Below are positions 2,419 to 62,100 of a DNA stretch of 64,000 nucleotides, in pieces. The position numbers were made by a program, and so were the translations under genes. This DNA comes from Platanthera guangdongensis. Taxonomy: Eukaryota; Streptophyta; Magnoliopsida; Asparagales; Orchidaceae. The stretch is taken from positions 88,410,564 to 88,474,563 of the forward strand of contig CM077166.1 of NCBI GenBank assembly GCA_039583875.1, read 5' to 3'. The notes under the pieces are model-generated. The model worked only from the letters and a program-made list of their open reading frames with translations. It was not told where the DNA came from and made no database searches. The stretch's first letter is position 1, and each line of letters opens with the position of its first letter.

Positions 2419-2579
2419 AAATGTGACACGGGTAGGGACACGGCCGTGTCCTTACCCGTGTCCTGCCTGGCGAAGCGGCAACGACAGTTTCCATGTCGGT
2501 TCATTACTTGACACGGCCGTGTGCATGGCCGTGTCCTTGGCCGTGTACTTCTCAGGTTGCCTCTCGACACTTCTCGTCG

Positions 2580-3015
2580 AGCTTAACTCGACGCACACGG
2601 GTGGGCACACGGCCGTGTCCCTACCCGTGTCCCTTGGTGTCGACACAGCTCGACGATCTCGACACGGCTCGTCGAGCTCAACTCGACGCACACGGGTAGG
2701 CACACGGCCGTGTCCCTACCCGTGTCCCTTGGTGTCGACACAGCTCGACGATCTCGACACGGCTCGTCGAGCTCAACTCGACGCACACGGGTAGGCACAC
2801 GGCCGTGTCCCTACCCGTGTCCCTTGGTGTCGACACAGCTCGACGATCTCGACACGGCTCGTCGAGCTCAACTCGACGCACACGGGTAGGCACACGGCCG
2901 TGTCCCTACCCGTGTCACTTGGTGTCGACACAGCTCGACGATCTCGACACGGCTCGTCGAGCTCAATTCGACGCACACGGGTAGGCACACGGTCGTGTCC
3001 CTACCCGTGTCACCT
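2580..3015 (-). repeat. 95-bp tandem array of palindromes in U3 of G1 3' LTR
   Basis: About 4.5 units of 95 bp. Each unit carries CACGGCCGTG, GTGTCGACAC and the inverted repeat CGTCGAG-CTCAA-CTCGACG. Unit starts recur at 2583, 2678 and 2773. Related single motifs extend the cluster down to about 2430. The array lies immediately upstream of the TATA box in the transcription direction, an enhancer-like position. Confidence 0.95.
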
Positions 3016-3141
3016 TCGTTTTATACTGATTCTCCATTTCTCCACAAGTGCAGTCCAATTCCCTGCACTCTCAGGACTCAAGTCAACCCTCCTGACTCAA
3101 AACACACACACTAGGGGCCTAGAGCGATTCGGGACGTTACA

Positions 3142-3180
3142 AATCCTATAAACAAAATAAAAGATTTCGTCCCCGAAATC
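3142..3180 (-). other. 3' end signals of G1: weak PPT and GGGGACGAAAT hairpin
   Basis: On the coding strand the inverted repeat GATTTCG-GGGA-CGAAATC (3180-3163) is followed by a T-rich stretch ending ATAGGATT next to the LTR. The purine tract is short and poor, unlike the aggagggtagggt of D, so it may be mutated. The hairpin matches ones at the same place in C and D. Confidence 0.6.
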
Positions 3181-3230: not shown

Positions 3231-6200
3231 TTAAATAAGATTACCTTGAGCAAACAACTCCGGGTAGCGTTGCTGCATTAAATCCATTGGCTCCCACGTG
3301 TACTCTTCTTTCCCATGATTCGACCATAGTACCTTCACCAAGGGTACACTTTTGCGGCGCAAAGTCCTTGTCTCGCTGTCAACAATCCGCACCGGCTCTA
3401 GTCGCACAGACCTATCTGATGCCACTGCACCATCAGTAGTGGGAATATACTGGTCGGGCCACAACAGTGCTTTTCGAAGCGACGACACATGGAACACGTC
3501 GTGGAGATTTTCTAGTTTCTGGTGGTAACTCCAACCGATAGGCCAACGGGCCAATCCTTTCCAATATAGTATAAGGCCCAACATACCTTGGGCTGAGCTT
3601 TTTCACTCCACGCACCCGCGACACTCCATGCATCGGCCGAATCTTGAGGAACACTTTTTCTCCCACCTGGAACTCCACCATCCGATGCTTTTTATTATAA
3701 TATTTCGCCTGTCGACTTTGAGCCTCCAACATGCGATCCCGTATCAATCTGACCGCCGCATCAGTATCATCTATATATTCGTTCCCCAATGCCTTCGGAT
3801 CTTCATCTTGCACCCAAGACAAGGGAGTCCTGCACCTTCTTCCGTAAAGGGCTTCATGGGGCGCCATGCCGATGCTTGCCTGATGGCTATTATTATAGGA
3901 GAATTCCACTAGTGGCAAGAGCCTTTCCCATGGCTCTCCTCTGTCCAACACACATAACCTCAATAAATCCTCCAGTGTTCTGATGGTCCGCTCTGACTGC
4001 CCGTCCGTCTGTGGGTGAAATGCGGTACTAAAGGTTAGGCGTGAGCCCAAATACGCCTGTACCGCCTTCCACTCATTGGATGTAAACCGACCATCCCGAT
4101 CTGAAACAATTGTCTTGGGCACGCCATGATACCGTACAAATTGCTCCACGAAAAGGCGTACCAAAACATCCACGTGTGCTTCCTTCTTCATTGGAATGAA
4201 CCGGGCCACCTTTGTCAGTCGATCCACAATAACCCATACTGAATCATTCCCGGAGCGGGAACGAGGTAACCCATGAACAAAGTCCATGGAGATATCCTCG
4301 AACATCCATTCGGGGATGGGCAATGACTGTAACAAACCACCGGGACTCCTGCATTCAGCCTTCACTCTTTGGCAAGCTTCGCAATGTGTAACATAGTAGC
4401 GAACATCTTTCTTCATTCCCGGCCAACACATGGTCTTCCGTAATCCGGCGTACATCTTAGCAATACCAGGGTGCACTGAATATTGAGAGGAATGTGCCTC
4501 TCTCAAGATATCCTCCCGAATTTTGCCGCCCTTGGGAATATAGAGTCGGCCACGAAAATAAATGAGGCCGTCTTTGAGTGTGTACTCATCGGTGGTCCCA
4601 TCTTCAATTGCCTTGATTGCCGGGGCCAAGGCCGCATCCATTCCTTGCTCCACCCGAATCCGATCTCGGATATCACAAACTATGCTCATGTTGGCCAAAT
4701 ACTCCGCATACTCTGCCGAAGGATCCTTGAATACTAGAGTAATTTCCATCTCCTCGATCATCCGAGCCAACTCCATGCTCATCAGCCGAGACTCTGGGCT
4801 AGAGCCTGGCACTTTTCTACTCAAGGCATCGGCTACCGAGTTCGCTTTCCCGGGGTGGTAGTTCATGGTGAACTCGTAGTCGCATAGAAATTCCAACCAC
4901 CGCCGTTGTCTCAGGTTCAACTCCTTCTGAGTGTGAACATACTTCAAGTTTTTGTGATCGGAAAAGATCTCGCAGTGCACGCCATATAAATAATGCCTCC
5001 AGACTTTCAAAGCGAACACCACTGCTCCCAACTCCAAATCATGAACCGGGTAATTGATTTCATGTTTCTTTAACTGCCTTGAAGCATAAGCGATCACATG
5101 CCCGTGCTGCATCAGCACCGCTCCCATCCCTTGATATGATGCGTCTGTGTAAACTTGGAATCCTTCCTTCCCAGACGGAAGTGCAAGGATGGGGGCGGAG
5201 GTAAGCCTATCTTTCAATTCTTGAAATGCCTCTTCACATTGAGGTGTCCACTCAAATGGCACACCCTTCTTCGTCAAGGAGGTAAGAGGAAGGGCAATCT
5301 TGGAAAAACCTTTCACGAACTTGCGGTAGTAGCCAGCAAGTCCAAGAAAGCTTCGTACATCAGCCGCCGACTTCAAGGGCGACCACTCTTTCACGGCCCG
5401 CACCTTTGCTGGATCCACTGCTAACCCTGCTCCACTGATCACATGCCCCAAGAAGGCAACCTCCTTAAGCCAGAATTCACACTTGCTAAACTTGGCATAC
5501 AAGGCATGCTCCTTCAATTTCTTCAAAACCAAGGTCAGGTGCTCGACATGCTCCTCCTCCGTCTTTGAGTAGACCAAGATGTCGTCGATGAAAACAATGA
5601 CGAAGATGTCCAAATACGGTTCAAACACCTTGTTCATCAAACTCATGAAGGCCGAAGGGGCATTTGTGAGCCCAAACGGCATTACTGTGAACTCATACAA
5701 ACCATATCTCGAACTGAATGCTGTTTTCTGAATGTCCCCCTCATGTATCCTCAACTGATAGTACCCGGAGCGCAAATCCAATTTAGAAAACCAATGTGCT
5801 CCCACTAGTTGATCGAACAACTCATCGATCCGCGGTAGTGGATAAGTGTTCCGCACCGTCAACCGATTGAGTTCCCGATAATCTATGCACAATCGCAGTG
5901 TTCCATCCTTCTTCTTCACGAACAGCACAGGGGCTCCCCATGGTGATGAACTGGGGCGAACGAACCCTGAATCCACCAGTTCTTGCAATTGAACTCTAAA
6001 CTCCGCGAGTTCTTTCGGAGCCATTCTGTACGGAGCCTTGGATACAGGCTTGGCACCTGGTACTAGATTGATCTGGAAGTCAACCTCTCTATGCGGAGGT
6101 AATCCTGGTAGCTTCTCAGGAAATACCTCAGGAAAATCCCGCACTACCCGTACATCCTTTAATTCCAACGCTGCTTCCTTCAACTCGAACCAGATCATGA

Positions 6201-6623
6201 AGACCTCATCCCCCTTCATATGAGCCTTTACAGCCTGAATAGAAGATAATATCATACGTGGCGCCAAGCCAATACCTTGGAAGATGACGTCAGAGTCTCC
6301 ATGCCTCAAATAGATCCGTTTCTCCGCGCAGTCGATCCTCGCGAAGTGCCAGTCCAGCCATGCCATGCCCAAAATGATGTCAAACTCCGGCATTCTCAGA
6401 ACCGTGGCCGGCGTGTCAAAGGCCTTCCCATCAATAAATAACTCCAACTCGCACTTGGCGGTTGCGATCATCTCTGAGCCGTCCGGAAGGCGTACACGTC
6501 GGGCTATGCCAGTGAAGTAGTGTACATCCCCCATGTCTTTTATGAAATCATCGGACACAAAGGAGTGTGAGGCACCGGTATCGAACAGCGCATAGGCTGT
6601 CTTCCCGCCAATAATCACGGTGC
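3231..6623 (-). CDS. pol: G1 Pol (PR-RT-RNaseH-IN, chromodomain-like tail), one frameshift
   Basis: The main open frame runs from 6618 to 3433. In order it shows protease DTGAS (residues 13-17 from 6618), RT with YRELN and the catalytic FIDD at residues 343-346 (5592-5581), RNase H with YTDAS, integrase zinc finger HPG...CEAC, and the integrase core with MDF, SDRDG and a following Glu. A one-base shift near 3514-3520 (A-run gaaac on the coding strand) moves the end of the protein to another frame, 3584-3231, holding LHDVFHVS and a VLWSNHG...TWEP tail. The length is normal for a plant chromovirus Pol. Pol has no convincing start of its own; the reading most likely enters from Gag by splicing at 6624/6623. 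The frameshift may be real or an assembly error. Confidence 0.9.
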
Positions 6624-6718
6624 CTAAGTACCAACAACCAAAACTTATTGCTAGTGGCTAGTAAGTTCTAATCAATTCAAGTTAGACCATGCAAATATGT
6701 AAATAAATTAAATCATAC
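6624..6718 (-). other. Putative 95-nt intron at G1 gag-PR junction
   Basis: The coding strand reads GCAG|GTATGATTT ... GGTACTTAG|GCACC. The segment is AT-rich with a U-rich 3' end, like plant introns. Joining 6719 to 6623 splits a Gly codon in phase 1 and leads into the Pol frame, with 13 residues before DTGA. Unspliced RNA in the same frame reaches a stop codon within four codons of the donor. The segment is homologous in position to ones in C and D. Splicing is inferred, not shown. Confidence 0.7.
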
Positions 6719-7822
6719 CTGCAATCACATCTTGTGGGTTCCGTTCCTGCGCCATGTCAAGCGCGTACACCTGATCCCGGGCTGGTCCGGGGTTTCCTCT
6801 TGGCGGTCCTCATCCTCGACCGCGCATATATCCTCGCCCTCGTGGAGCTGCTGGAGGGAGAGCAGGAGGGAGAGCAGGAGGGAGAGCAGGAGGGGCGTTC
6901 CCATATAGTTGCGGGCAAAACGCCGGATGTGGCCCGGCTGGTTGCATTCGAAGCACACCAGACCACGACGCCCTTCAGGTTGTTGAAATCGCTGATGCTG
7001 TGGGGGTGGAGGCAACGCAGGCGGCTGCGGAACTGGATGCTCCACCCTATAGTTTCGGTGGACACGCCCGCCACCTCTTTGATAACCTCTTCCTCCTCTG
7101 AAGTCCCGTCTCCTTCTATTACTTGGGCCGACTTCCATCACGTCCTCCGCAGGCCTCTTGCTACATCCCATGTGGTCTGCCTCCAATCTTTTCGCCATAT
7201 CAATGATCTCCGCCAAGCTACCATCCGCTATAAACAAAAGGGACTGCCTTAGGGGATCTCGCAGCCCTTTATAGAAGCGCTTGGCATAACCTCTGTCATC
7301 CAACTCATAAGAATCTGCAAACCTTGCGAGATGCTGGAATTCCCGCTGGTATTCTGTAACCGACTTTGATCCCTGCTTTAGTAGAAGGAACCTCTGCTCA
7401 AGCTCATCTCGGGCCGAAGTAGGGATAAAGTGCTCCAAGAAAACACCCGAGAATTCATTCCAACTTATCTCCGTGTAGATCCGGCCTTGGAAGGTAGAGC
7501 CCATGAGGGACTTCCACCACCTCTTCGCATGTAAGTCCAAGACGGACACTGCCAATGTCACTGCCATGTTGGCTGGGCAACGGATACCGGCCAACAACTC
7601 CTGTATCGTGTCTAGCCATTCCTCTGTATGTACGGCTGACTCCGTCCCCAGGTAGACGGGAGGGGAGAGAGCCCGGAAGGTGCTCAGCCAGTTGGAGCTC
7701 GGGGCCTGTTGTTGCACCGGAGCCTGCTGAGCCTTAAAAGCATCCAGAATGGCGGTGAGCGTCTGCCCCAACTCAGACTGTTGGAACTGAGTGGGTATGG
7801 GAGGGGTAAGAGTACCCCCCAT
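6719..7822 (-). CDS. gag: G1 Gag (capsid/nucleocapsid), frameshifted near zinc knuckle
   Basis: From the ATG at 7822 the protein shows the retrotransposon Gag core (AKRWWKSL, ...EFSGVFLEHFIP..., VTEYQREFQHLARF), a basic Arg/Gly-rich stretch and a zinc knuckle starting CFECNQPGH. The knuckle's last Cys is missing because of a one-base loss in the T/A run at 6917-6920. Downstream of this point a different frame encodes a Pro/Ala-rich and RGRG linker leading to the intron donor at 6719. That linker frame has one further stop (TGA, about 6806). The open frame as it stands ends at 6725. A 12-bp triplet repeat (agcaggagggag, 6850-6890) lies in the linker. Confidence 0.85.
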
Positions 7823-8022
7823 CGGCTCAACATGCAGTGGAACCTACACATACACGACAAATTTGTGGTCAGGTTGGCTAAACTTAAGGTCAAAGTTGGA
7901 CAACTTAATGTGAATTACATATGGGCACACCACTGCTTCCGCTAAGTTAGTTTGTCCCCAAACTGACTAACCAAACGGGGGTGGCACCATTGTTGAATGA
8001 CTTCTTAGTTGAGGATCGTGGC

Positions 8023-10768: not shown

Positions 10769-10929
10769 AAATGTGACACGGGTAGGGACACGGCCGTGTC
10801 CTTACCCGTGTCCTGCCTGGCGAAGCGGCAACGACAGTTTCCATGTCGGTTCATTACTTGACACGGCCGTGTGCATGGCCGTGTCCTTGGCCGTGTACTT
10901 CTCGGGTTGTCTCTCGACACTTCTCGTCG

Positions 10930-11362
10930 AGCTTAACTCGACGCACACGGGTGGGCACACGGCCGTGTCCCTACCCGTGTCCCTTGGTGTCGACACAGCT
11001 CGACGATCTCGACACGGCTCGTCGAGCTCAACTCGACGCACACGGGTAGGCACACGGCCGTGTCCCTACCCGTGTCCCTTGGTGTCGACACAGCTCGACG
11101 ATCTCGACACGGCTCGTCGAGCTCAACTCGACGCACACGGGTAGGCACACGGCCGTGTCCCTACCCGTGTCCCTTGGTGTCGACACAGCTCGACGATCTC
11201 GACACGGCTCGTCGAGCTCAACTCGACGCACACGGGTAGGCACACGGTCGTGACCCTACCCGTGTCACTTGGTGTCGACACAGCTCGACGATCTCGACAC
11301 GGCTCGTCGAGCTCAATTCGACGCACACGGGTAGGCACACGGCCGTGTCCCTACCCGTGTCA
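10930..11362 (-). repeat. 95-bp tandem array of palindromes in U3 of G1 5' LTR
   Basis: This is the same 95-bp array in the promoter-bearing LTR, with units at 10933, 11028 and 11123. One unit has lost a palindrome to two substitutions (cacggtcgtgaccc). Copy number equals that of the other LTR, so the array has been stable since insertion. Confidence 0.95.
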
Positions 11363-11499
11363 CCTCCTTTTTACACTGATTCTCCATTTCTCCACAAGTG
11401 CAGTCCAATTCCCTGCACTCTCAGGACTCAAGTCAACCCTCCTGACTCAAAACACACACACTAGGGGCCTAGAGCGATTCGGGACGTTACAAAACGACC

Positions 11500-35267: not shown

Positions 35268-38200
35268 TTACTCGAGCTCCCACGTCGTGTTTTCCACATC
35301 CTGATTTTTCCATAGCACCCTGACCATAGGAATCTTCTTTTTTCGTAACACGCGATCTTGAGAGTCCAATATCTGGATGGGCATCTCCTCATAAGAAAGG
35401 TTGGGCGCTACTTGTGGCACAACGACCAACACTTGCTTGTCATTCCGCACACACTTGCGAAGTTGGCTAACATGAAACACATTGTGAACACCAGGAAAGT
35501 TCACGGGTAATTCTATATTGTAGGCGGATGCACCAACTCGCGCAAGAATCTTGAAGGGACCCACAAATCTTGGGTCTAATTTGCGCTCTTTACCAAACCT
35601 TTTAATCCCAACCATTGGGGAGACTTTCAAGAAAACGGAATCTCCCACCGCAAACTCTAATTCCGACCTTCGTCGATTGACATACTTTTCATATCGCTCT
35701 TGGGCGATTCGGAGCTTCTCGCGGATCCATCGTACGGCAACTTCCATGTCCTCGAGCGCCTCTGGACCCAACAAAGACCGCTCGCCAACCTCAGCCCAAA
35801 ATAGTGGGGTCCGACATCGTCGCCCATATAACGCTTCGAACAGAGCCATTTGCAAGCTTTCTTGATAGCTGTTATTATACGCGAATTCCATAAGCCACAA
35901 ATGTTCATCCCATGCCCCGCCATACTCAAGAATGTAGCATCGAATCATATCTTCCACAATTTGGTTTACTCGTTCCGTTTGGCCATTCGTCTGAGGATGA
36001 TAAGCCGTGGAATATCGCAAATCTGTCCCCAAACCCTCTTGTAGACTTCGCCAAAAATGAGAGGTAAAGCGGGAATCTCGGTCTGAAATGATACTCACAG
36101 GCACACCATGCAGTCGGATGATCACGTTCACATAGAGCTCCGCTATTGTCTTCATCGGGTAGTTGACCTTAAAGGGTATGAAATGAGCACACTTGGTCAA
36201 CCTATCCACGATCACCCACACGGAGTCATGTCCTCGTGGAGATCTTGGTAAACCTGTAATAAAATCCATTGAGATGCATTCCCACTTCCATGTTGGAATC
36301 TCCAATGGTGTCAACTTGCCACCAGGCCTCCCATGATCAGCTTTCACCCGCTTGCAGGTATGACATTCAGCTACAAATTGCGCTATATCTCTTTTCATTC
36401 CATACCACCAGACAATTTGTTTCAGATCACGGTACATTTTTGTTGAGCCTGGATGGTAGGCCATGCTTGAGCCATGTGCTTCCCGACACACCATCTCGCG
36501 AATGTTTCCAACTATGGGAATACAAAATCGACCACGATACTTTAACGTGCCTGCACCGTCAATCGTAAAATCTGGTAATTCATCCTTTTCAGTCCGAAGA
36601 AATAAATGTAAAAAATCAGGATCATCCTTTTGATATTGTCTTGCAAGCACCAGCCATGAAGGTTCTTCTACTGCCGAATGACTTTGCGGGTCATATTTGC
36701 CCACAGAAATATCCATCAATAGAAATTCCTCCACAAGACGATCGACTGAAAGATGAAATAATTTCCCCATCTTCTGACTCAAAGCATCGGCCACAACATT
36801 CGCTTTCCCCGGGTGATACTGAATGTCCACGTCATAATCAGCTACATACTCAAGCCATCGCCGTTGGCGCAAATTAAGTTCTTTCTGTGTGAAGACATAC
36901 TTCAAGCTTTTATGATCTGTAAAGATTTTACACTGTGCACCATACAGTAAGTGTCTCCACAACTTCAATGCAAATATCACCGCTGCGAACTCCAAATCAT
37001 GCGTTGGGTAGTTCTTTTCATGACTTTTCAACTGCCGAGACCCATATGCAATTACCTTCTTGTCTTGCATTAACACACATCCAAGTCCAACGTGTGACGC
37101 ATCCACAAACACTTCATAATCTTTTCCTTCTGTCGGCAAGATCAACAAAGGAGTGGTACATAACCTGTTCTTGAGTTCCAAGAAGGACGCCTCACACTTG
37201 TCATTCCACTCAAACGCCACATGATTCTGGGTTAATCGAGTCAAAGGTGCGGCCAACGTCGCAAAACCTTCGACAAATCTGCGATAATAGCCGGCCAATC
37301 CCAAGAAGCTTCGAATCTCCTTGGGTGTCTCCGGTCTACTCCACTCCATAACTTCAGCAATCTTTTCGGGATCCACTGAAATTCCTTGTTGATTAATGAC
37401 ATGGCCCAGAAAAGCAACTTGAGACAACCAAAACTCGCATTTGCTTAGCTTGGCGAATAATCGTTGATCTCGCAAAGTGGCCAATACCAATCGCAGATGG
37501 TGTTCATGCTCCTCAGCACTGCGGGAGTAGACAAGAACGTCAACAATAAAAACCACCACAAAGTTATCCAAGTAGTCCTTGAAGACCCTGTTCATCAGAT
37601 CCATGAAAGCTGATGGTGCATTGGTCAACCCAAACGACATCATAAGGAATTCAAAATAGCCATGCCTTGATCGAAATGCAGTCCGCGGAATATCAGACTC
37701 CCGGACCTTGAGCTGATGATAGCCCGAGCGGAGATCAATCTTCGAAAATACGGAACTGCCACGCAGTTGATCAAATAAATCATCAATTCTTGGCAGTGGG
37801 TACTTGTTTTTAATCGTCACCTTATTCAACTCCCGGTAATCGATGCAAAGCCGCATCGACCCATCTTTTTTCTTCACAAATAACACTGGTGCACCCCAAG
37901 GTGATGAACTGGGCCTGATAAACCCTTTTGCCAACAAGTCAACCAGCTGTGTACGCAACTCTGCTAGCTCACGCGGGGCCATCCTGTACGGCGCTTTCGC
38001 AATAGGTCGCGTACCCGGCTCCAAATCAATAACAAACTCGACATCACGATCAAGTGGTAGACCAGGAAGGTCAGTAGGAAAAACATCTGGAAATTCACGC
38101 ACAACAGGAATCTCCTCCAAACGCGGTAAAATAGCACTAGTCCCCACAGTGGAGACAAGACAAGCAAAACAGTCGGAAACAAACAACGTCCGAACACATA

Positions 38201-38590
38201 CCGCCGAAAGCCCTAGAAAATCCTGGCAAGAATCACCATACAGACTTCCTGGCTGACCATCATCTTTAATAAAATCCAAGCGCTTTCCTCTGCACTGGAT
38301 GACAGCGTCATAGCGGGATAACCAGTCCATGCCCAGAATGACGTCAAAATCTTCCAAATCGATCACCTTGCAATCAACCCTTGCTATGAAATCCCCAAAC
38401 AAAATGGGACAATCAAGAAGACCCCAGTCAACCACCACAGAAGCACCGGAAGGAAATTTCACCAAAAACGCATTCCCCACTCGATCTGGTGTCAAATGAT
38501 ACCGATCCAGAAAGGTTCGAGCCACAAATGAATGGGTCGCGCCAGAATCAAAGAGAACACGCGCCCAACGGTTCTTTACCTTAAAGTTTC
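35268..38590 (-). CDS. pol: C Pol (PR-RT-RNaseH-IN, chromodomain-like tail)
   Basis: The frame is open from 38843 (overlapping gag) to the stop at 35268; the real entry is probably the splice acceptor at 38591/38590. Domains in order: protease FDSGATHSF and ILGMDWL, RT with LCIDYRELN and [13 protein letters not shown], RNase H with [11 protein letters not shown], integrase zinc finger HPGSTKMY...CHTCKR, core with [17 protein letters not shown] and a following Glu, then [21 protein letters not shown] and an IPMVRVLW...TTWELE tail. The RT active site is FIVD instead of FIDD (37550-37539), so polymerase activity is expected to be lost. No stop or frameshift lies between PR and the end. Confidence 0.92.
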
Positions 38591-38667
38591 CTATAAGGGT
38601 ACATATGTAGCTAAAAACTACGCATAAGAGGCAGAAACAAAACAGGAACCAGAGGAATGAATCGAAC
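38591..38667 (-). other. Putative 77-nt intron at C gag-PR junction
   Basis: The coding strand reads CTCAG|GTTCGATTC ... CCCTTATAG|GAAAC and is T-rich. Gag frame (codon starting at 38668) plus splicing leads exactly into the Pol frame, splitting Gly in phase 1, with 13 residues before DSGA. Unspliced RNA adds about 17 codons and stops at TAG (38617-38615). Position and phase equal those in G1 and D. Confidence 0.75.
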
Positions 38668-39883
38668 CTGAGATAACTTGAGGTGATGTATGAGCTTCCT
38701 CTGAAGAGACCACATTCAACTTCCCTTTGCCTTTGTCTACACGCGGAGGCGGAGGCAAAGCCTGGAGTGGTGCGGGTTGCAAAACAGGTTGGATCTGCGG
38801 GCACCTTGCACGAAGATGTCCTGGTCTGCCACACTGGAAGCATACCTTGTCTTTGGCCCAGCAGCGGCCCACATCATGACCTCTTCTCCCACAAAATGTA
38901 CACGCCAAGTCTCTGGTTGGCACACCCTGAATGGCGTGCACCCGCTCCTTCTTCTGCATCCCCAACCTCTTGAAACATGTATCAAATGGGTGACCGGCTC
39001 GGCCACAGAAGCTACATATTTCCTTCTTCTTCTTGACGTCTGACTCGTGGGACATTTTCTCTCCCACCAGCTGTCTCTTGCCCTGCCTCATCTGCTGCCC
39101 TCTTTGTTTGGCATTTTCTATAGATTCCACCTTCAACGCAGCCTCAACCGCAGTGGTATAACTTGTCGCTCCATAAGCACTTGTGAATTGCTGCACGTCG
39201 CTGCGGAGTCCGCCAAGAAATCTCTTTACTCGGTCAGCTTCCGTCGTCACCAAGCTCGGAGCGAACCGACTTAACTTGCTAAACTCAATTTCATACTCAC
39301 TCACTGTGTGTTGCCTCTGCTTCAAGTACAGGAAGTCATTCATCAGGCGGTCCCTTTCCACTGCCGGTAGAAACTTGCGCCGTAACATTTCTTTGAATGC
39401 TTCCCACGAACAGGCCGCCCCTAGGCCTTCCTTTTCTCGCAACCACCAACCTTTCGCCAACCCTTTGAGTTGATAGGCGGCAAGCATCACCTTCTAGTCC
39501 TCGGTAATGCCAGAATACACAAACATCTCTTCCAATGTGATCACCCAATCATCCAAGATCACAAAGTCTGCTTTTCCATCATAAGTCGGTGGTCCAAGTC
39601 GCTGAAACTGCGAGATGAAGGTCATCGCAGGAGGAACAACAACTGGGGGTATCACTGTCACTGAAGGGGTAGAAATCGTTTGGCCTCTAACCGTCTCTTG
39701 CCCTCTTGGTGCCAGCCCCGACATTGCTGATGACATAGCTTGGAGCTGGGACTGCACTTCCTGCACCTGCCTCGTCAAAGCCTCATTACTTTGGCGAAGA
39801 CTATCCATCAGGGCATTATTCTGCGCGCCCGAAGACTCGCCCTCGGATTGGGGAGTTTGCCTTATCACTAGACGCTTCGACAT
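38668..39883 (-). CDS. gag: C Gag with three zinc knuckles, one internal stop
   Basis: The likely start is the ATG at 39883 ([12 protein letters not shown]); the frame is open further up to 39955. The Gag core includes [38 protein letters not shown] and [16 protein letters not shown]. Three CX2CX4HX4C knuckles follow: [28 protein letters not shown] and [15 protein letters not shown] single TAG at 39493-39491 separates the first 130 codons from the rest, in the same frame. The unspliced frame ends at 38615. The protein would form the capsid and bind RNA. Confidence 0.88.
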
Positions 39884-44158: not shown

Positions 44159-45634
44159 TTATTCTAAGTTTATCATTCCTAGTTCAATTTTAAACCTATT
44201 GAACTTAGTTTCTTCTAAGGGCTTAGTATACATATCAGCTAGTTGAATATCTGTTTTAACATATTCTAATAAAATATCTTCTTTCTCTACATGCTCCCTA
44301 AGAAAATGATATTTTATTTCAATATGTTTAGTTCTACTATGAAAAACAGGATTATGAGCAATTGATATAGCACTTGTAGAATCACAAAAGAGTGGAGTTC
44401 TACTTACCTGAAATCCATAATCCTCAAGCTGAAGTTGTATCCATAGAAGTTGAGCACAGTAACTTCCAGCAGCCACATATTCTGACTCTACTATGGAGAT
44501 AGCCACACTTATTTGCTTCTTGCTACTCCATGAAATCAGTCTTCCACCTAGGAATTGACAGGTTCCAGTTGTGCTTTTTCTGTCTTCTTTGCATCCTGCA
44601 AAGTCTGCATCTGAATAACCTGTTAGTTCAAAATCCCCATTCCTAGGGTACCAGAGGCCTAGATAAGGAGTGCCCTTTAGATATCTCAATATTCTTTTGA
44701 CTGCTATCAAATGAGACTCTTTAGGGCAGGCTTGATACCTTGCACAGACACATGTAGCATACATGATATCTGGTCTACTTGCAGTCAAATATAATAGGGA
44801 GCCAACTATCCCTCTATACAAAGACTCATCTACAGGTTTCCCTGCATCATCCTTGCTAAGAGACATACTTGACCCCATAGGAGTCTTCATGGTACTGGAT
44901 GAATCCATACCATACTTCCTTATGAGTTCTAGTGTGAACTTAGACTGGCATATGGATAAACCATTCTCAGTCTGTCTAACTTGGAGACCCAAGAAGAACT
45001 TAAGTTCTCCCATACCACTCATCTCAAATTGACCTTGCATTAGTTTTGCAAACTTTTTGCAAAGAATATTTTCAGTATACCCAAATATAATGTCATCTAC
45101 ATATATTTGGACTAGTATTACTTTGCCTCTGGATTCCCTAAGGAATAGAGTCTTATCTATTTTCCCCCTTGTGAACTTATTCTCAATGAGGAAACTAGAC
45201 AGGGTTTCATACCAAGCCCTAGGGGCTTGCTTTAACCCATATAATGCTTTCCTAAGTCTATAGACATGATTAGGTAGAGTTGAATCAAAAAAACCTGATG
45301 GCTGTTCCACATAGACTTCCTCTTTTAGATTATCATTCAGAAATGCTGACTTGACATCCATTTGGTAAACTTTAAATCCTTGAAAGGTTGCATAGGCCAG
45401 GAACATCCTTATGGCTTCCAGTCTGGCTACTGGAGCAAAGGTTTGATCAAAATCAATATCTTCTTCCTGTTTATATCCTTTAGCAACCAATCTTGTTTTG
45501 TTCTTAATGATGACTCCATGCTTATCCATCTTGTTCCTAAAGATCAACTTTGTCCCAATTATATTGTGGTCTTTTGGTTTAGGAACAAGCTCCCAGACCT
45601 TGCACCTTTTGAACTGATTCAGCTCTTCTTGCAT
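44159..45634 (-). CDS. B reverse transcriptase-RNase H (491 codons open)
   Basis: Copia RT begins near [17 protein letters not shown], continues through [15 protein letters not shown] and [19 protein letters not shown], and has the catalytic YVDDIIFG (45103-45092). RNase H follows with [17 protein letters not shown], an ESEY Glu, [14 protein letters not shown] and ADMYTKPL. The frame equals that of the integrase part, from which it is separated by one TAG (45706-45704). All catalytic residues I can identify are present. Confidence 0.93.
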
Positions 45635-45706
45635 TGCTTCAATCCAATGAGGGTCTAGGATGGCTTCTTCAAACTTCTTTGGTTCAACATGGGATAGAAA
45701 ACTGAA

Positions 45707-47326
45707 CTAGATTGTTGCATTCAGATTTCTGCTCCTTGTTTGTACCCCTTGTCTTGGATCACCAATGATTTGTTCTGCTGGATGATCTCTTAGATGCCTA
45801 TTGGCTGGAGGTATCCTGACTTCAGGTTGAACTTCTTCAACTTCTTCATCTTGTTGTACTCCTTGTACTTCTTCTGCATTTGGTACATGTAGTACTCTCC
45901 CTGGACAGCAGCCACTATCTTCTACTTGATGCCTCGCAGTAGGTTCTTCTTCTATAGTGAGCTTGTCCATCTTCTTTGTTATACCTGTGGAGTTGCATAC
46001 ACTACTAGACAACTCATTGTTAATAAGTCTAGTTTCATCAAATACTACATGTACAGATTCCTCTACAACTTGAGTAGAGAAGTTATAGACTCTATAAGCC
46101 TTACTGTTGTTGCTGTATGCAACAAAAATTCCCTCTTGGGACTTGGCAGCAAACTTAGTCAAGTAAGACTTTCCATTGTTAAGTATAAAGCACTTACAAC
46201 CAAAGATCCTGAAGTAGGATAGGTTTGGTTTCCTGCCTTTCACAACCTCATAGGGGGTCTTGTTGTGGCTTTTAGTTATGGTAGCCCTATTAATAACATG
46301 ACATGCAGTATTGACTGCTTCAGCCCAGAAATATTCTGGTAGTGATGTATCACTTAGTAGGGTCGTACCAGCCTCAATCAAGGTTCTATTCTTCCTTTCA
46401 GCAATGCCATTTTGCTGAGGTATTCTTGGTGAAGAAAACTCTTGAAATATCCCAAATTCTTCACATAGTTTTGTCATGCTATCAGACTGAAATTCAGTAC
46501 CATGGTCACTTCTTATTTTGACCACTGTACTATTTAGTTCATTCTGAATTTGTCTAACAAAGCTATAGAAGACACTGGGTGTTTCAGATTTCTGTCTAAG
46601 AAAGAACACCCAGGAAAACCTTGAGTAGTCATCTACAACTACAAAGGTATAGACCTTCCTACCTAGGCTGTGAACTGGCATTGGACCAAAGAGATCCATA
46701 TGCAAGAGGTATAAGCACCTCACAGCATCTTTGTTTTCAATGCTTCTAAAGGTGGATCTAGTCTGCTTGCCCTTTTGATAAGCTGAGCAAATACCATCTT
46801 TAATACACTTAACTTGAGGACCATTCCTCACTAACTCTTTACTAAAGAGTTTGCCAATTGTCTTGTAGTTAAGATGGGCTAGCCTCTTGTGCCATTTGAC
46901 ACAATGAGAGACTGTCTCATCAGCTACAAGACATACTGGAGAACCATTGTTCTCAACCATAATGTCTAAGCAATAGACATTCCTTTTTCTATAGCCAGTC
47001 AAAATGATCTCTTTATCATTTGACCTCCTGATATGATAACCATCTTTCATAAATGAGATGTCATATCCTACATCACTCAATTGACTTATACTAATAAGGT
47101 TATATTTCAAACCTTTAACATAGGCCACTTGAGTAATTGTAATAAAGGAGTTAGATATGTTACCAAAACCCTTGATGATCCATTTTTCAGAACCACCAAA
47201 GGTGACTTTTGGACCATCCTTGATAGGTGTGTAGTCCTTTAATAAACCCCTTGTTCCAGTCATGTGTCTGGAACATCCACTGTCGAAGTACCATATTGGG
47301 GCATGGCCACTTGGACTCACCTGCAA
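45707..47326 (-). CDS. B protease end-integrase (539 codons open)
   Basis: After a TTG at 47326 the frame shows WYFDSGCSRHMTG, YNLISISQLSD, the integrase zinc finger and the core: MDLFGP, SDHGTEF and the Glu in PQQNGIAERKNRTLIE. It ends with NLSYFRIFGCKCFI, GIFVAYS and an acidic linker. The second zinc-binding Cys of the CX2C pair is replaced by Tyr (CSAYQKGKQ), which would weaken the finger. Gag lies in the same frame upstream, separated by a TAA at about 47332. Confidence 0.92.
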   Translation of the reverse strand: MQVSPSGHAPIWYFDSGCSRHMTGTRGLLKDYTPIKDGPKVTFGGSEKWIIKGFGNISNSFITITQVAYVKGLKYNLISISQLSDVGYDISFMKDGYHIRRSNDKEIILTGYRKRNVYCLDIMVENNGSPVCLVADETVSHCVKWHKRLAHLNYKTIGKLFSKELVRNGPQVKCIKDGICSAYQKGKQTRSTFRSIENKDAVRCLYLLHMDLFGPMPVHSLGRKVYTFVVVDDYSRFSWVFFLRQKSETPSVFYSFVRQIQNELNSTVVKIRSDHGTEFQSDSMTKLCEEFGIFQEFSSPRIPQQNGIAERKNRTLIEAGTTLLSDTSLPEYFWAEAVNTACHVINRATITKSHNKTPYEVVKGRKPNLSYFRIFGCKCFILNNGKSYLTKFAAKSQEGIFVAYSNNSKAYRVYNFSTQVVEESVHVVFDETRLINNELSSSVCNSTGITKKMDKLTIEEEPTARHQVEDSGCCPGRVLHVPNAEEVQGVQQDEEVEEVQPEVRIPPANRHLRDHPAEQIIGDPRQGVQTRSRNLNATI

Positions 47327-47332
47327 AACAGA

Positions 47333-49375
47333 TTAGTGAACCTTAGAACCCAAAGAATTCTTGGGTCCTTGGTACTGGTTAGTTTGCATCCTAACAAAGC
47401 TACCTGCAGGTTTTCCAACAGGCAGTTTGCTACTCACTTTGGCACTAGCATTGTGCCAACAGTCCATTGCAAAGTGGCCTACCTTGCCACAACACCAACA
47501 CTCAAACTTATTGTACCTTTGCTTAGGTACTGTCTTTGCTGTTTTATCTACAACTGACTTGTTGAGAGTTGGTGCTTTGCCCTTGGACTTGGACTTGGAC
47601 TGAATAGTCCTAGCTGGTTTAGTAAATCCCAGACCAGCTTTACCTTTGTGATAAACAAATTCATCAATTAAGGGTAGAACTAACTTAGGTTTAGAAAACC
47701 TAGCAAATAAGTCTTTCTCCTTCTGAAGATTAATCTCCAGACTCTTGATTTGATCATTCTTAAATGATATAGTCCCCATCTGAATCACAGTTATGTGCTT
47801 CAGTCTGGCTATCTCATTAAGCTTTTGATCAAACAACTTCTCAAAATCAGTTGCAGCAGCTTTGAGATTAGCAATTTCCTTTGCCGGAATTTTGGCTAGG
47901 GACTTGCTCTTCTTATAATCTTGCAACAGAACTTTATATTCATCTATCAACTGATGAATATCCTCTTCAGACTCAGATGCACACTCATCATTTGATGATG
48001 ATGAATCTGATTCTGTACTGGCACAAGAAATTGAACTAAAAGAACAATGTTGTACCTTACTAGGTCCTGGCTGCTCCAGGATTTTGTCACTTTCTATCAA
48101 TGCCATTAGTCCTTGGCACTGACTGTCCTCTTGTTCATCTATTGATTTCATGATCTGAATGAACTCTTCTTCTTCTTCCTCAGCAAACAGTCCTATATTT
48201 GCCTCAGCATCTGACTCAGTTTCTGATGAAGAAATATCTGACAGGCTCTTGTCCTTTTTGGCAACAAAAGACTTTTCCTTCTTGCCCTTGTATTGAGTCC
48301 TTTTCTTTTCACTAGACTCCTTCCTTTTTTCTGGACAATCTGCAACAACATGACCTTTTCTATTACAGTAATAGCATACTATTTTTGAAAGTGTTGCCTT
48401 GCTAGACTTGGTCTTTTTCCTGTCTTTCTTTGAAGACTTTTTATTCTGATAAAAGTCTTCTTTTCCCTGTGAAGTAGATGGCCTTGTCCTCCATTGTTTC
48501 ATCTTTAAGAACTTCTGGAAATGTCTTGTAAAGGCAGCAAAGTCCTCATCACTTTCACTGCTTTCAGACTTTCTACTTGCTGACTCATCTGACTCAGTTT
48601 CAGCAACCTTTGGAGGTGGAGATGGTGACTTACTCCTGTACTTTCTGGGGGCTTCTGTTTTGAAGGCCGCTGTCCTTTCTTTATGTTCACTTCTTGTTGA
48701 TTTCTCCTCTTCTTTCCTCACCATTAACTGCATTTCATAGGACAGCAGTTTGCCAAATAGTGTTGGTGGAGGAATTTCTCCAAACTTTATCATTTCCCTA
48801 ATGGCACAGATCTTGGTATCCCAATCTTTTGTTAGGGACCTTAGAAACTTATCATTGAGTTCATAATTACTGAACTCTCTGTCATAGGACATGAGCTCAT
48901 TCACAATCCTGTAGAACTTCTTATAGCACTCAGTTATGCTATCAGCCTTACCTTGTCTAAAACTTTCATATTCTTGGTTTAGCAAGGATTTTCTGTCTTG
49001 TCTCACTTCTTCAGAACCCTCCATATACACAATAAGAGTATCCCACATCTCTTTAGCTGTCTTACAGTGTATCAAATTCTGAAAAGTTGCATCATCTATG
49101 GCACTCACTATGATATTCTAAGCCCTCTTATCCATAGTGGCTAGAACAATTTCATCCTTTGTCATTTCAGAGAAATTCTTAGGTGTTCTCTGATTTGCAT
49201 CTAAGACTGACACCTTCATGGGCACATATGGCCCTTCTTTTACTGTGATATAAATCCTAGGGTCTGAGGCTTCCATAAACAGTCTCACCCTTTCCTTCCA
49301 GATACCAAAGATCTCTTTTCTACATATGGGTAACTTTATGGATCCCAATTCCTTGTGATTCTCAGTGGAACCCAT
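47333..49375 (-). CDS. gag: B Gag, two zinc knuckles, one internal stop
   Basis: The start is the ATG at 49375 (MGSTENHKELG); a TAG at about 49118 interrupts it after 85 codons and the same frame continues to 47333. The core shows FGIWKERVRLFME, AKEMWDTLIVYMEG and ITECYKKFYRIVNELMSYDRE. Then come Ser/Glu-rich and Lys-rich parts, the knuckle CYYCNRKGHVVADC, an acidic and coiled-coil-like region, and a second knuckle CWCCGKVGHFAMDC. The length fits a Sirevirus Gag. Bases 49376-49466 are a short leader. Confidence 0.9.
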
Positions 49376-59124: not shown

Positions 59125-59199
59125 GTACGAGCTAAGTTATTGCATGCTTTGGTTATTGTATGCTTTATATGTGGCTTGTGTGTGAAACCATTGTCGCAG
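59125..59199 (+). other. Putative 75-nt intron at D gag-PR junction
   Basis: GTCACAG|GTACGAGCTAAG ... CATTGTCGCAG|GCTTTG. Splicing splits Gly in phase 1 and joins the gag frame to the Pol frame, 13 residues before DTGA. Without splicing, TAA follows two whole codons after the split one. The length is divisible by three, but the in-frame stop blocks read-through. Confidence 0.75.
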
Positions 59200-62100
59200 G
59201 CTTTGTGATGATTCGGAACACGCTAGCGTCAGTACTGTTTGATACGGGTGCTTTGCATTCTTTTCTATCCAAAAACTTCATAGCTCAACTTGTGATACCT
59301 AGTCATGTGAAGACAGATAGCGTCAGGGTGGTGTTACTGAATGGTTGTGTGATGCTTGTTGATAAGGCTTACGATGTGATGGAGCAAATATGAAGTCTAG
59401 ATTTCTATTTGACTGCATCTGTATTGCTGATATCGGAATTCGACGTGATCTTTGGTATGGATTGGCTCGCGGAGCAGCATGCCTTGATTGATGGTAATGA
59501 CAAAGAGATCACATTGGGACAGAATACTGAGATGGCGACTATGTTCGCGGGTATGCAAGGAGTGGGCGGGACGTTGATGTCTGCACTCCAAGTCATCAAG
59601 GCTGTTCGGAAGGGCACGGAGGTATACTTCACGCTGATTCGTGCTGTTGAGCCCAAGGCCAATGTGAGTGATATTCCAGTTGTATCGGAATTTGCAGATG
59701 TGTTTCCGAAGGATCTCCTTAGGCTACCACCCCAGCGAGAGATTGAATTCACGATCGAGTTGGTTCCAAGTGCGAAACCTGTGCCCCGCTCGCCATATCA
59801 CGTCACGCCAAAGGAAATGGCGGAGTTGAAAATCCAACTACAAGAGTTGCTGGAGCAGGATTATATACTCCAAAGCACGTCACCTTGGAGCGCGCCTGTT
59901 CTGTTTGTGAAAAAGAAAAACGGTGGTTTGTGGTTATGTATTGACTACTGTTAACTGAAAAAACTGACCGAGAAGAATAAGTATCTGATTCCCCAGATTG
60001 ATGAGTTATTCAATCAGCTAGCGGGATCAACCATCTACTCCATGTTGGATTTGAAGTCTGGTTATTACCAGTTGAGAATTCGGGAAGGTGACATTTCTAA
60101 GACCGCATTTGGAACATGTTATGGGCATTATGAGTTCACGGTAATGTTGTTTGGGCTCTGCAATGCACCATCAATATTTATGGACCTGATGAACCGAACG
60201 ATCCGAGAGTACCTGGACTTTTTTGTGATTGTGTTCATTGATGATATCTTGGTGTACTCGAAATCGGAAGCAGATCACTAAAACCACTTGCGGTTGGTCT
60301 TGCAGACATTAATGGAGAATAAGCTCTATGCCAAGTTCTCGAAATGCTGGTTTTGGCTATCGTTGGTGGCTTTTCTTGGCCATGTGGTAAGCGGATAGGG
60401 CATAGCAGTGGATCCGGCAAAGATACGGGCCATACAAGAGTGGCTAGTGTTTTCTTCGGTGGCCGAAGTTAGGAGCATCCTTGGAATGGCGGGCTAATAT
60501 AGACGGTTTGTGGAAAACTTCTCGCGGATTGCTTTGCCTCTTACCACACTGACGAGAAAGGATCATAAGTTCGTTTGGACGCCGGAGTGCGTGCGACCTT
60601 TTGAAGAGCTAAAGAGTCGGTTGACCACGACACCGGTGTTTATATCGCCATGTGGTACCGACGGATTCGAGATCTATAGTGATGCTTCAGGAAGCGGCTT
60701 AGGTTGCGTTCTTCTGCAAAATGGAAAAGTGATTGCTTGTAGCTCTCGCCAGCTGAAGGTGTATGAGCGAAATTATCCCGTCCATGACTTAGAGTTGGCG
60801 GCGGTGATCTTTGCAATGAAGTTATGGTGACATTATATGTATGGCGTGAAAGTGGATATCTTCACGTACCATAAGAGCCCAAAGTACTTATTGGAGCAGA
60901 AGGGTTTGAATATGCGACAACGAAGTTGGTTGGAGTTCCTTGGGGACTACACCTTTGAGATTCATTATACTCCCGGGAAGGGAAATGTGGTCGTTGATGC
61001 CTAGAGTCGGCGGGCTCTGGAAAGGGCAAATTGGATGCAGAAGCACGACGAATGTCTAATCCAGGAGTTGGAAGCGTTAGAAATTTCTTGTATTGACAAG
61101 AATTCTATAGCCGATGCATGTTTCCACTTGACGGAGGTGCAATATGACCTTGCGGACAAGATTCGATGAGCAACGGAGCTAGATGAAAGTCTCCAATGCT
61201 ATGCAAAGGACGAACCAGATGGTAAAGTCTCCTTGTATCACGGCCTTATGCAGAAAGAGGGCCGTTTGTGAGTCCCGAATTTGGGTAAGTTGAGGGAAGA
61301 GTTGATGTACGAAGCTCACTATACGAAGTACTCAATTCAACCTGGGAGCACGAAGATGTTCAGAGACATGAAGAAGCTATTCTGGTGGCCAAGACTGAAG
61401 ACTGATGTCGCTCATTATGTGGCCAAATGCCAAACTTGTGCTTTGGTAAAGGCGGAATGCCAGAAGCCTGGCAGTTTCTTGAAGTCGTTGCCGATTCCGG
61501 AATGGAAGTTTGATGATATTTCCATGGATTTTGTGCACGAGTTGCAAAGATATAAACGCGGTAAAGATTCGATCTGGGTGATTGTAGATCAGTTGACGAA
61601 AGTGGCACACTTTCTTCCGAATTAACTGGATGATTACGTGGAAACTTTGGCGAAGTTGTATGTTGAACAGATTGTACGGCTACACGGTGTTCCTTGGAGC
61701 ATCGTAAGCGATCGGGATGGGCGCTTTACTTTGAATGAATGCAGGCTGATCCATCAGCTGTTGGGCACGAAATTGATGTTCAGTATGGCCTTTCATCCCC
61801 AAATAGATGGCCAAACTGAGAGAACCAACAGAACGATGGAAGATATTCTCTACATGTGTGCCCTGGACTTTGGGAAGAGATGGGAAGATCATCTCTATCT
61901 GGTGGAGTTTGGCTACAACAACAGCTACCAAGCGAGCATCGGTATGACACCGTTTGAAGCTCTGTATGGTCGGAAGTGCCGTACACCGTTGGCATGGGCA
62001 GAAGCAGGAGAATCCATAGTGTATGGACGTAACGAAGTCGAGGAAGCGAACTTGATGATATGCACTATCCGAGAAAGGCTACTGATAGCCCATGATGGAA

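Follow-up and report, generated by a model that had tools for sequence, protein, structure and literature searches.

The stretch of DNA considered here is a 64,000-nucleotide (nt) interval of the orchid Platanthera guangdongensis (assembly GCA_039583875.1, contig CM077166.1, positions 88,410,564 to 88,474,563 of the forward strand), and this whole interval is called the window. It contains three long terminal repeat (LTR) retrotransposons, designated G1, C, and D, each of which carries a short GT...AG segment at the border between the gag and protease coding regions (Table 1). In terms of element type, G1 and C showed the Ty3/gypsy order of gag, protease, reverse transcriptase (RT), RNase H, and integrase in the Pfam search, and D was assigned to Ty3/gypsy by a Pfam match to the protease only, together with its similarity in the protease–RT region. 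The name chromovirus, under which the preliminary description had placed all three elements, was only partly borne out: C matched the chromodomain only weakly and below threshold (14.6 bits; cut-off 25.1), and G1 had no match. Elements of this kind go by the label Tekay.

Table 1. Features at the gag–protease border of elements G1, C, and D (window coordinates; the introns are putative, and exon and open reading frame [ORF] names follow from them)
Feature	Coordinates	Strand	Description
G1 putative intron	6718..6624	-	95 nt, GTATGA...ACTTAG, phase 1, Gly codon split
C putative intron	38667..38591	-	77 nt, GTTCGA...TTATAG, phase 1
D putative intron	59125..59199	+	75 nt, GTACGA...TCGCAG, phase 1
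G1 end of exon 1	6719..6761	-	Last 14 codons and first base of the split Gly codon; like the gag end of relatives
G1 pol ORF	3433..6657	-	Stop to stop; protease, RT, RNase H, integrase, SH3; exon 2 from 6623
G1 gag ORF	6725..7843	-	PF03732; frame differs from the frame reaching the donor
C gag ORF	38618..39493	-	PF03732 and a zinc knuckle; in frame with exon 1; stop inside the putative intron
C pol ORF	35268..38873	-	Stop to stop; exon 2 from 38590; frame happens to be open through the putative intron
D start of exon 2	59200..59264	+	Up to the protease active site LFDTGALHSF

The segment ends were as first described, base for base, in all three elements: each segment starts with GT and ends with AG, is preceded by G, and is followed by GN. 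Exactly 13 residues lie between the split Gly and the D(T/S)GA motif in each element, again as had been claimed, and the unspliced gag frame runs into a stop after 3 (G1), 16 (C), and 3 (D) codons, counting the split codon. In C, the frame leading to the donor has 275 codons, and the pol frame past the acceptor has 1106. The reservation that had been made about the gag frame of G1 was justified, because only 30 codons upstream of its donor are free of stops in the exon 1 frame, meaning that the gag frame of this copy is broken; the D copy is also decayed, with a pol frame open for only 63 codons. The chance of finding both GT and AG at anchors fixed by homology was approximately 0.004–0.006 per element for G1, C, and D, and 1e-7 for all three if they are independent.

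Protein homology places the segment at the same point. A Gly residue at position −14 from the protease Asp was present in 28 of 28 proteins in a first set and in 115 of the 120 homologous proteins that had the motif and enough upstream sequence (a wider set that includes the first). In three homologous proteins (P0123, P0135, and P0183), Cys or Ser replaces the junction Gly, and the remaining motif is intact. When a profile of nine non-redundant relatives was scanned over unjoined G1, C, and D, with 200 shuffles as the null, the best upstream match stopped just before G|GT and the best downstream match began just after AG|GN in all three elements. The downstream scores (46–51) were far above every shuffle; upstream, C scored 16.9, higher than all 200 shuffles (maximum 12.4), and D scored 9.9, close to the best shuffle at 9.8. 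The coding sequence conserved among the relatives is split exactly at the segment ends in G1, C, and D.

The same arrangement recurs in further families of the genome. When the whole genome was searched with PF08284, a protease family (150 matches scored of 98709 candidates), 52 matches started at profile position 21–23, which corresponds to the junction, and 98 started at 3–6; the numbers of copies with and without the intron are not comparable, because PF08284 scores favor contiguous copies and the D query described below favors the segment. Forty of the 52 junction-start matches were fetched, 38 of these had the motif, and 37 were resolved; L096 and L097 were left out because they lacked the motif by regular expression, and L103 because its upstream stretch was unrelated. 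The resolved copies comprised family E (35 copies), with a 79-nt segment and the same split, and family F (two copies), with an 84-nt segment and an unspliced stop one codon past the donor. All 37 copies had GT...AG, and G preceded GT in 35. Of the 35 family E copies, 29 had a gag frame without stops over 193 or more codons leading to the donor, and in 34 the unspliced frame reached a stop 6 codons past the donor. An open frame of 1132 amino acids (aa) was retained in 14 of the 52 junction-start matches.

Families E and F also include copies from which the segment is exactly absent. Among the 30 contiguous matches that were read, of the 98 (L077 falls among the rows without the motif), three E copies (L052, L053, and L057) lacked the segment and were joined at the predicted place, and four F-like copies (L058, L060, L063, and L065) lacked exactly the 84 nt; the intronless copies carry the expected peptide at the join. 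Compared with the intron-bearing copy L081, L052 was 99.2% identical in exon 1 (360 nt) and 96.9% identical in exon 2 (130 nt), without gaps, and the corresponding values for L053 were 98.9% and 96.9% over the same lengths. The F-like intronless copies were 89–92% and 86–88% identical to F. A 32-base exact E-join pattern, which finds only exact 79-nt losses and not ragged ones, had five sites in 4.25 Gb with two or fewer mismatches, and the reversed-pattern control had none.

Phylogenetic trees showed that neither the intronless copies of E nor the intron-bearing copies of F make up a single clade. The E tree, built from 34 intron-bearing and 5 intronless copies (L095 was left out), required a minimum of four changes of intron state, and a single clade of intronless E copies was rejected (p-AU 2.6e-6), as was a single clade of the two intron-bearing F copies (p-AU 0.0014). 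Intronless L063 was sister to intron-bearing L108 with support of 97/98. L057 has substitutions in common with intron-bearing L102 and L105; L052 and L053 have one in common with intron-bearing L088, L110, L111, L112, and L119; and L121 and L122 share several substitutions of their own. Such change counts cannot themselves separate gain from loss, and one loss could be passed among copies by template switching, which leaves the number of loss events uncertain. The exact-loss evidence covers families E and F. Because the loss there is exact and scattered over the trees, we read these copies as retrocopies of spliced RNA, and a spliceosomal intron is the most likely identity of the segment. The proposal that the segment acts as an intron at a homologous position common to several families was upheld, and the exact intronless copies of E and F point to splicing in vivo.

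The copies of the D family, of which 30 were read (the best of 40 scored from 7604 candidates), indicated that the segment tolerates changes in length. The D segment fell into 10 length classes of 75–92 nt, and the exon lengths were nearly fixed (246 nt for exon 1 in 22 of 30 copies and 310 nt for exon 2 in 29 of 30). There were 13 distinct gap events in 90 segment columns versus 8 in 556 exon columns (Fisher p 2.6e-7). GT was kept in 29 and AG in 27 of the 30 copies.

Several observations weigh against an intron. The upstream profile score of G1 (5.6) lay within the shuffled null (mean 4.0, maximum 10.6), although despite this low score the match was the top site and abutted G|GT. The splice-site bases of D were not clearly better conserved than the remaining columns (mean column identity 0.92–0.93), so that there is no selection signal within this family, and the D query included the segment, meaning that copies without it would rank low. 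A branch-point-like motif, searched for as one simple motif, was absent in C, D, and E1, and in the others it was located 52–88 nt from the acceptor, so that none occupied the customary position. Furthermore, the intron ends have a 3-nt microhomology in both E (GGT) and F (AGG), from which a single exact deletion could arise at the DNA level. The intronless copies might accordingly have originated by DNA deletion between short end repeats rather than from spliced RNA, and the E-join pattern, being able to find exact joins only, would not reveal the ragged products of such a process. We consider this origin very unlikely, given that the three E and four F-like exact joins surfaced in the PF08284 search, in which no join pattern was used, and that more than one subgroup of each of E and F contains intronless copies. 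The 30 D copies also had indels inside the segment and no exact loss, with the limitation that their query favored segment-bearing copies.

A different way of joining gag and pol, by programmed ribosomal frameshifting or stop readthrough with the segment translated or skipped, would be permitted by C alone, where pol overlaps gag and no stop interrupts its frame within the segment. It is not compatible with the families as a group. The segment lengths of G1, C, D, E, and F modulo 3 are 2, 2, 0, 1, and 0, so that the offset from gag to pol varies by family; the segment bodies of different families gave alignments that were not, or only marginally, better than those of shuffles; and no frame of the G1 segment is free of stops. 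The variable lengths and the unalignable bodies rule out one common frameshift or readthrough, and such a mechanism also predicts no exact intronless copies, making it extremely improbable overall. The segments had a T content of 0.40–0.50, compared with 0.14–0.34 in the flanks.

Grouping by protease–RT residues placed G1 and D together with P0002 of Platanthera zijinensis, and C, H, J, E, and F in another clade (E and F by way of their intronless copies), with the intronless family K (L051 and L059) apart. The closest named relatives of C were the P. zijinensis gene models P0069, P0070, and P0075, whose junction peptides resemble that of spliced C; P0070 groups with intronless family H. These P. 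zijinensis models, known from proteins alone, and families H and J have the same protein architecture and a V-I-S-G-type junction as found here, but the H and J copies that were read have no intron, unlike G1, C, and D. Family H (L062, L064, L066, L071, L075, L078, and L080) is an intronless relative of C with single frames of up to 1535 aa, and a spliced copy may have given rise to it as a successful lineage. Intact relatives without the segment, named in the preliminary description as grounds for doubting an intron, therefore do exist in the literal sense. In E and F, however, the segment is missing exactly and repeatedly, a pattern that points to splicing followed by reverse transcription rather than against the intron.

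The distribution across families could reflect either one ancient shared intron that was lost several times or several separate gains at a CAG|G site. Independent gains would have occurred at a proto-splice site, since ...CAG|G is a frequent spelling of the conserved V-I/V-S/T-G. In line with this, the join reads CAG|G in most intronless relatives (F, H, J, and K; CTG|G in E), the intron bodies of different families cannot be aligned with one another, and G1 and D belong to a separate clade from C, E, and F. However, the five families have the segment at the same base and in the same phase, with a short and similar length of 75–95 nt, and repeated loss accounts more simply than repeated gain for which E and F copies have it and which do not. 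Independent gain is, in our judgment, unlikely. The sesame gene models P0018 and P0024 initially seemed to have an intron annotated at this position, but they were not used because CAG|G at intronless joins could mimic an acceptor in gene prediction. A search for related loci in viral contigs gave 44 pattern stretches, none of which was confirmed, and none of the 20 top RVT_1 matches fetched had a D(T/S)GA-type motif by regular expression; these were set aside.

Three further features of the window were recorded. In the gag of C, at about 38798–39011 (minus strand), three zinc-knuckle-like motifs in a row can be discerned by eye, and Pfam zf-CCHC reports one. Tandem 95-base repeats at 2467–3146 and 10817–11496 have the same internal pattern, lie 8350 bases apart, and are probably located inside the two LTRs of G1. 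A Ty1/copia element at 44159–49117 (minus strand) contains three adjacent ORFs (594, 541, and 515 aa) abutting in one frame, apparently representing one gag-pol frame with two in-frame stops.

Taken together, these data are very probably best explained by a fixed-site intron in several Ty3/gypsy families, with proposed roles in the production of Gag and Gag-Pol and with retrocopies formed from spliced RNA. The intron would interrupt, in phase 1, the Gly codon with which the protease begins, 14 residues ahead of the catalytic Asp. Unspliced RNA would serve as the genome and would also be translated into Gag, with termination a few codons beyond the donor, and spliced RNA would encode the Gag-Pol fusion. 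Spliced RNA would sometimes be reverse transcribed, producing intronless copies, and some intronless lineages may persist as single-ORF elements. Both RNA forms seem to have been templates, since 35 E copies keep the intron and a few have lost it exactly. Splicing efficiency would then act as a control on the balance of Gag and Gag-Pol, and it is plausible that partial splicing sets this ratio, as had been suggested.

The intron could also be spliced constitutively or incidentally, without any control of the ratio, and the intron-bearing copies could be moved in trans by the Gag-Pol of intronless copies. Intronless single-ORF relatives with long open frames, such as those of family H, are common among the scored matches, and intronless copies exist within E itself. 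Conversely, many junction-start matches keep the 1132-aa frame and most E copies an open gag, as if still coding, and the nearly invariant unspliced stop in E argues against an incidental intron. We regard this alternative as a serious possibility, if short of a probable one. More tentatively, a regulatory intron at the gag–protease border might be an ancient feature of one large branch of plant Ty3/gypsy elements, with Gag made from unspliced and Gag-Pol from spliced RNA; the common single-ORF members would then derive from reverse-transcribed spliced RNA, the control of the ratio having been shed repeatedly. Were the intron ancestral, single-ORF organization, the usual one, would be derived. 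The mechanism by which Gag is produced in excess over Pol has been worked out for only a few plant LTR elements, and the presence of an intron at this border, in families with many copies that retain an open pol frame, points to a simple, testable switch. The intronless sister copies would record how often spliced RNA enters reverse transcription.

Among plant LTR elements, most groups have one ORF and some have two; as described in PMC6317226, separated ORFs occur in Bianca and Ogre, and splicing has been shown for Ogre. According to a December 2025 review, plant elements are generally intron-free, with Ogre and EVADE as notable exceptions (PMC12786077), and spliced isoforms are described for the sunflower Ty1/copia elements Tyran and Varan (PMC7730604). 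In the open-licence literature, as far as its text was accessible, we found introns or splicing in plant LTR elements for Ogre and Ty1/copia and no report of an intron at this gag–protease place in chromoviruses; in the available portion of a paper on beet chromoviruses, "intron" refers only to an insertion site (PMC3605345). The present elements resemble Ogre (Ty3/gypsy, Tat; pea and Medicago) in their probable intron in the polyprotein region; that of Ogre is spliced from only part of the transcripts (PMC6317226). Unlike the Ogre-type intron, which lies between protease and RT, the segment here precedes the protease motif, is 75–95 nt long, and splits a conserved Gly codon. Bianca (Ty1/copia) is likewise split, having two ORFs with a short spacer of 172 bp on average, but it belongs to another superfamily, and experimental splicing is reported for Ogre only in the text of PMC6317226 that was available. 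As in the short-GAG splicing of EVADE and BARE1 (PMC12786077) and in Tyran and Varan (PMC7730604), splicing would alter the encoded proteins; in those elements, however, as far as these sources describe, it mostly shortens the message to a Gag-type product, whereas here the spliced RNA would encode Gag-Pol and the unspliced RNA would encode Gag.
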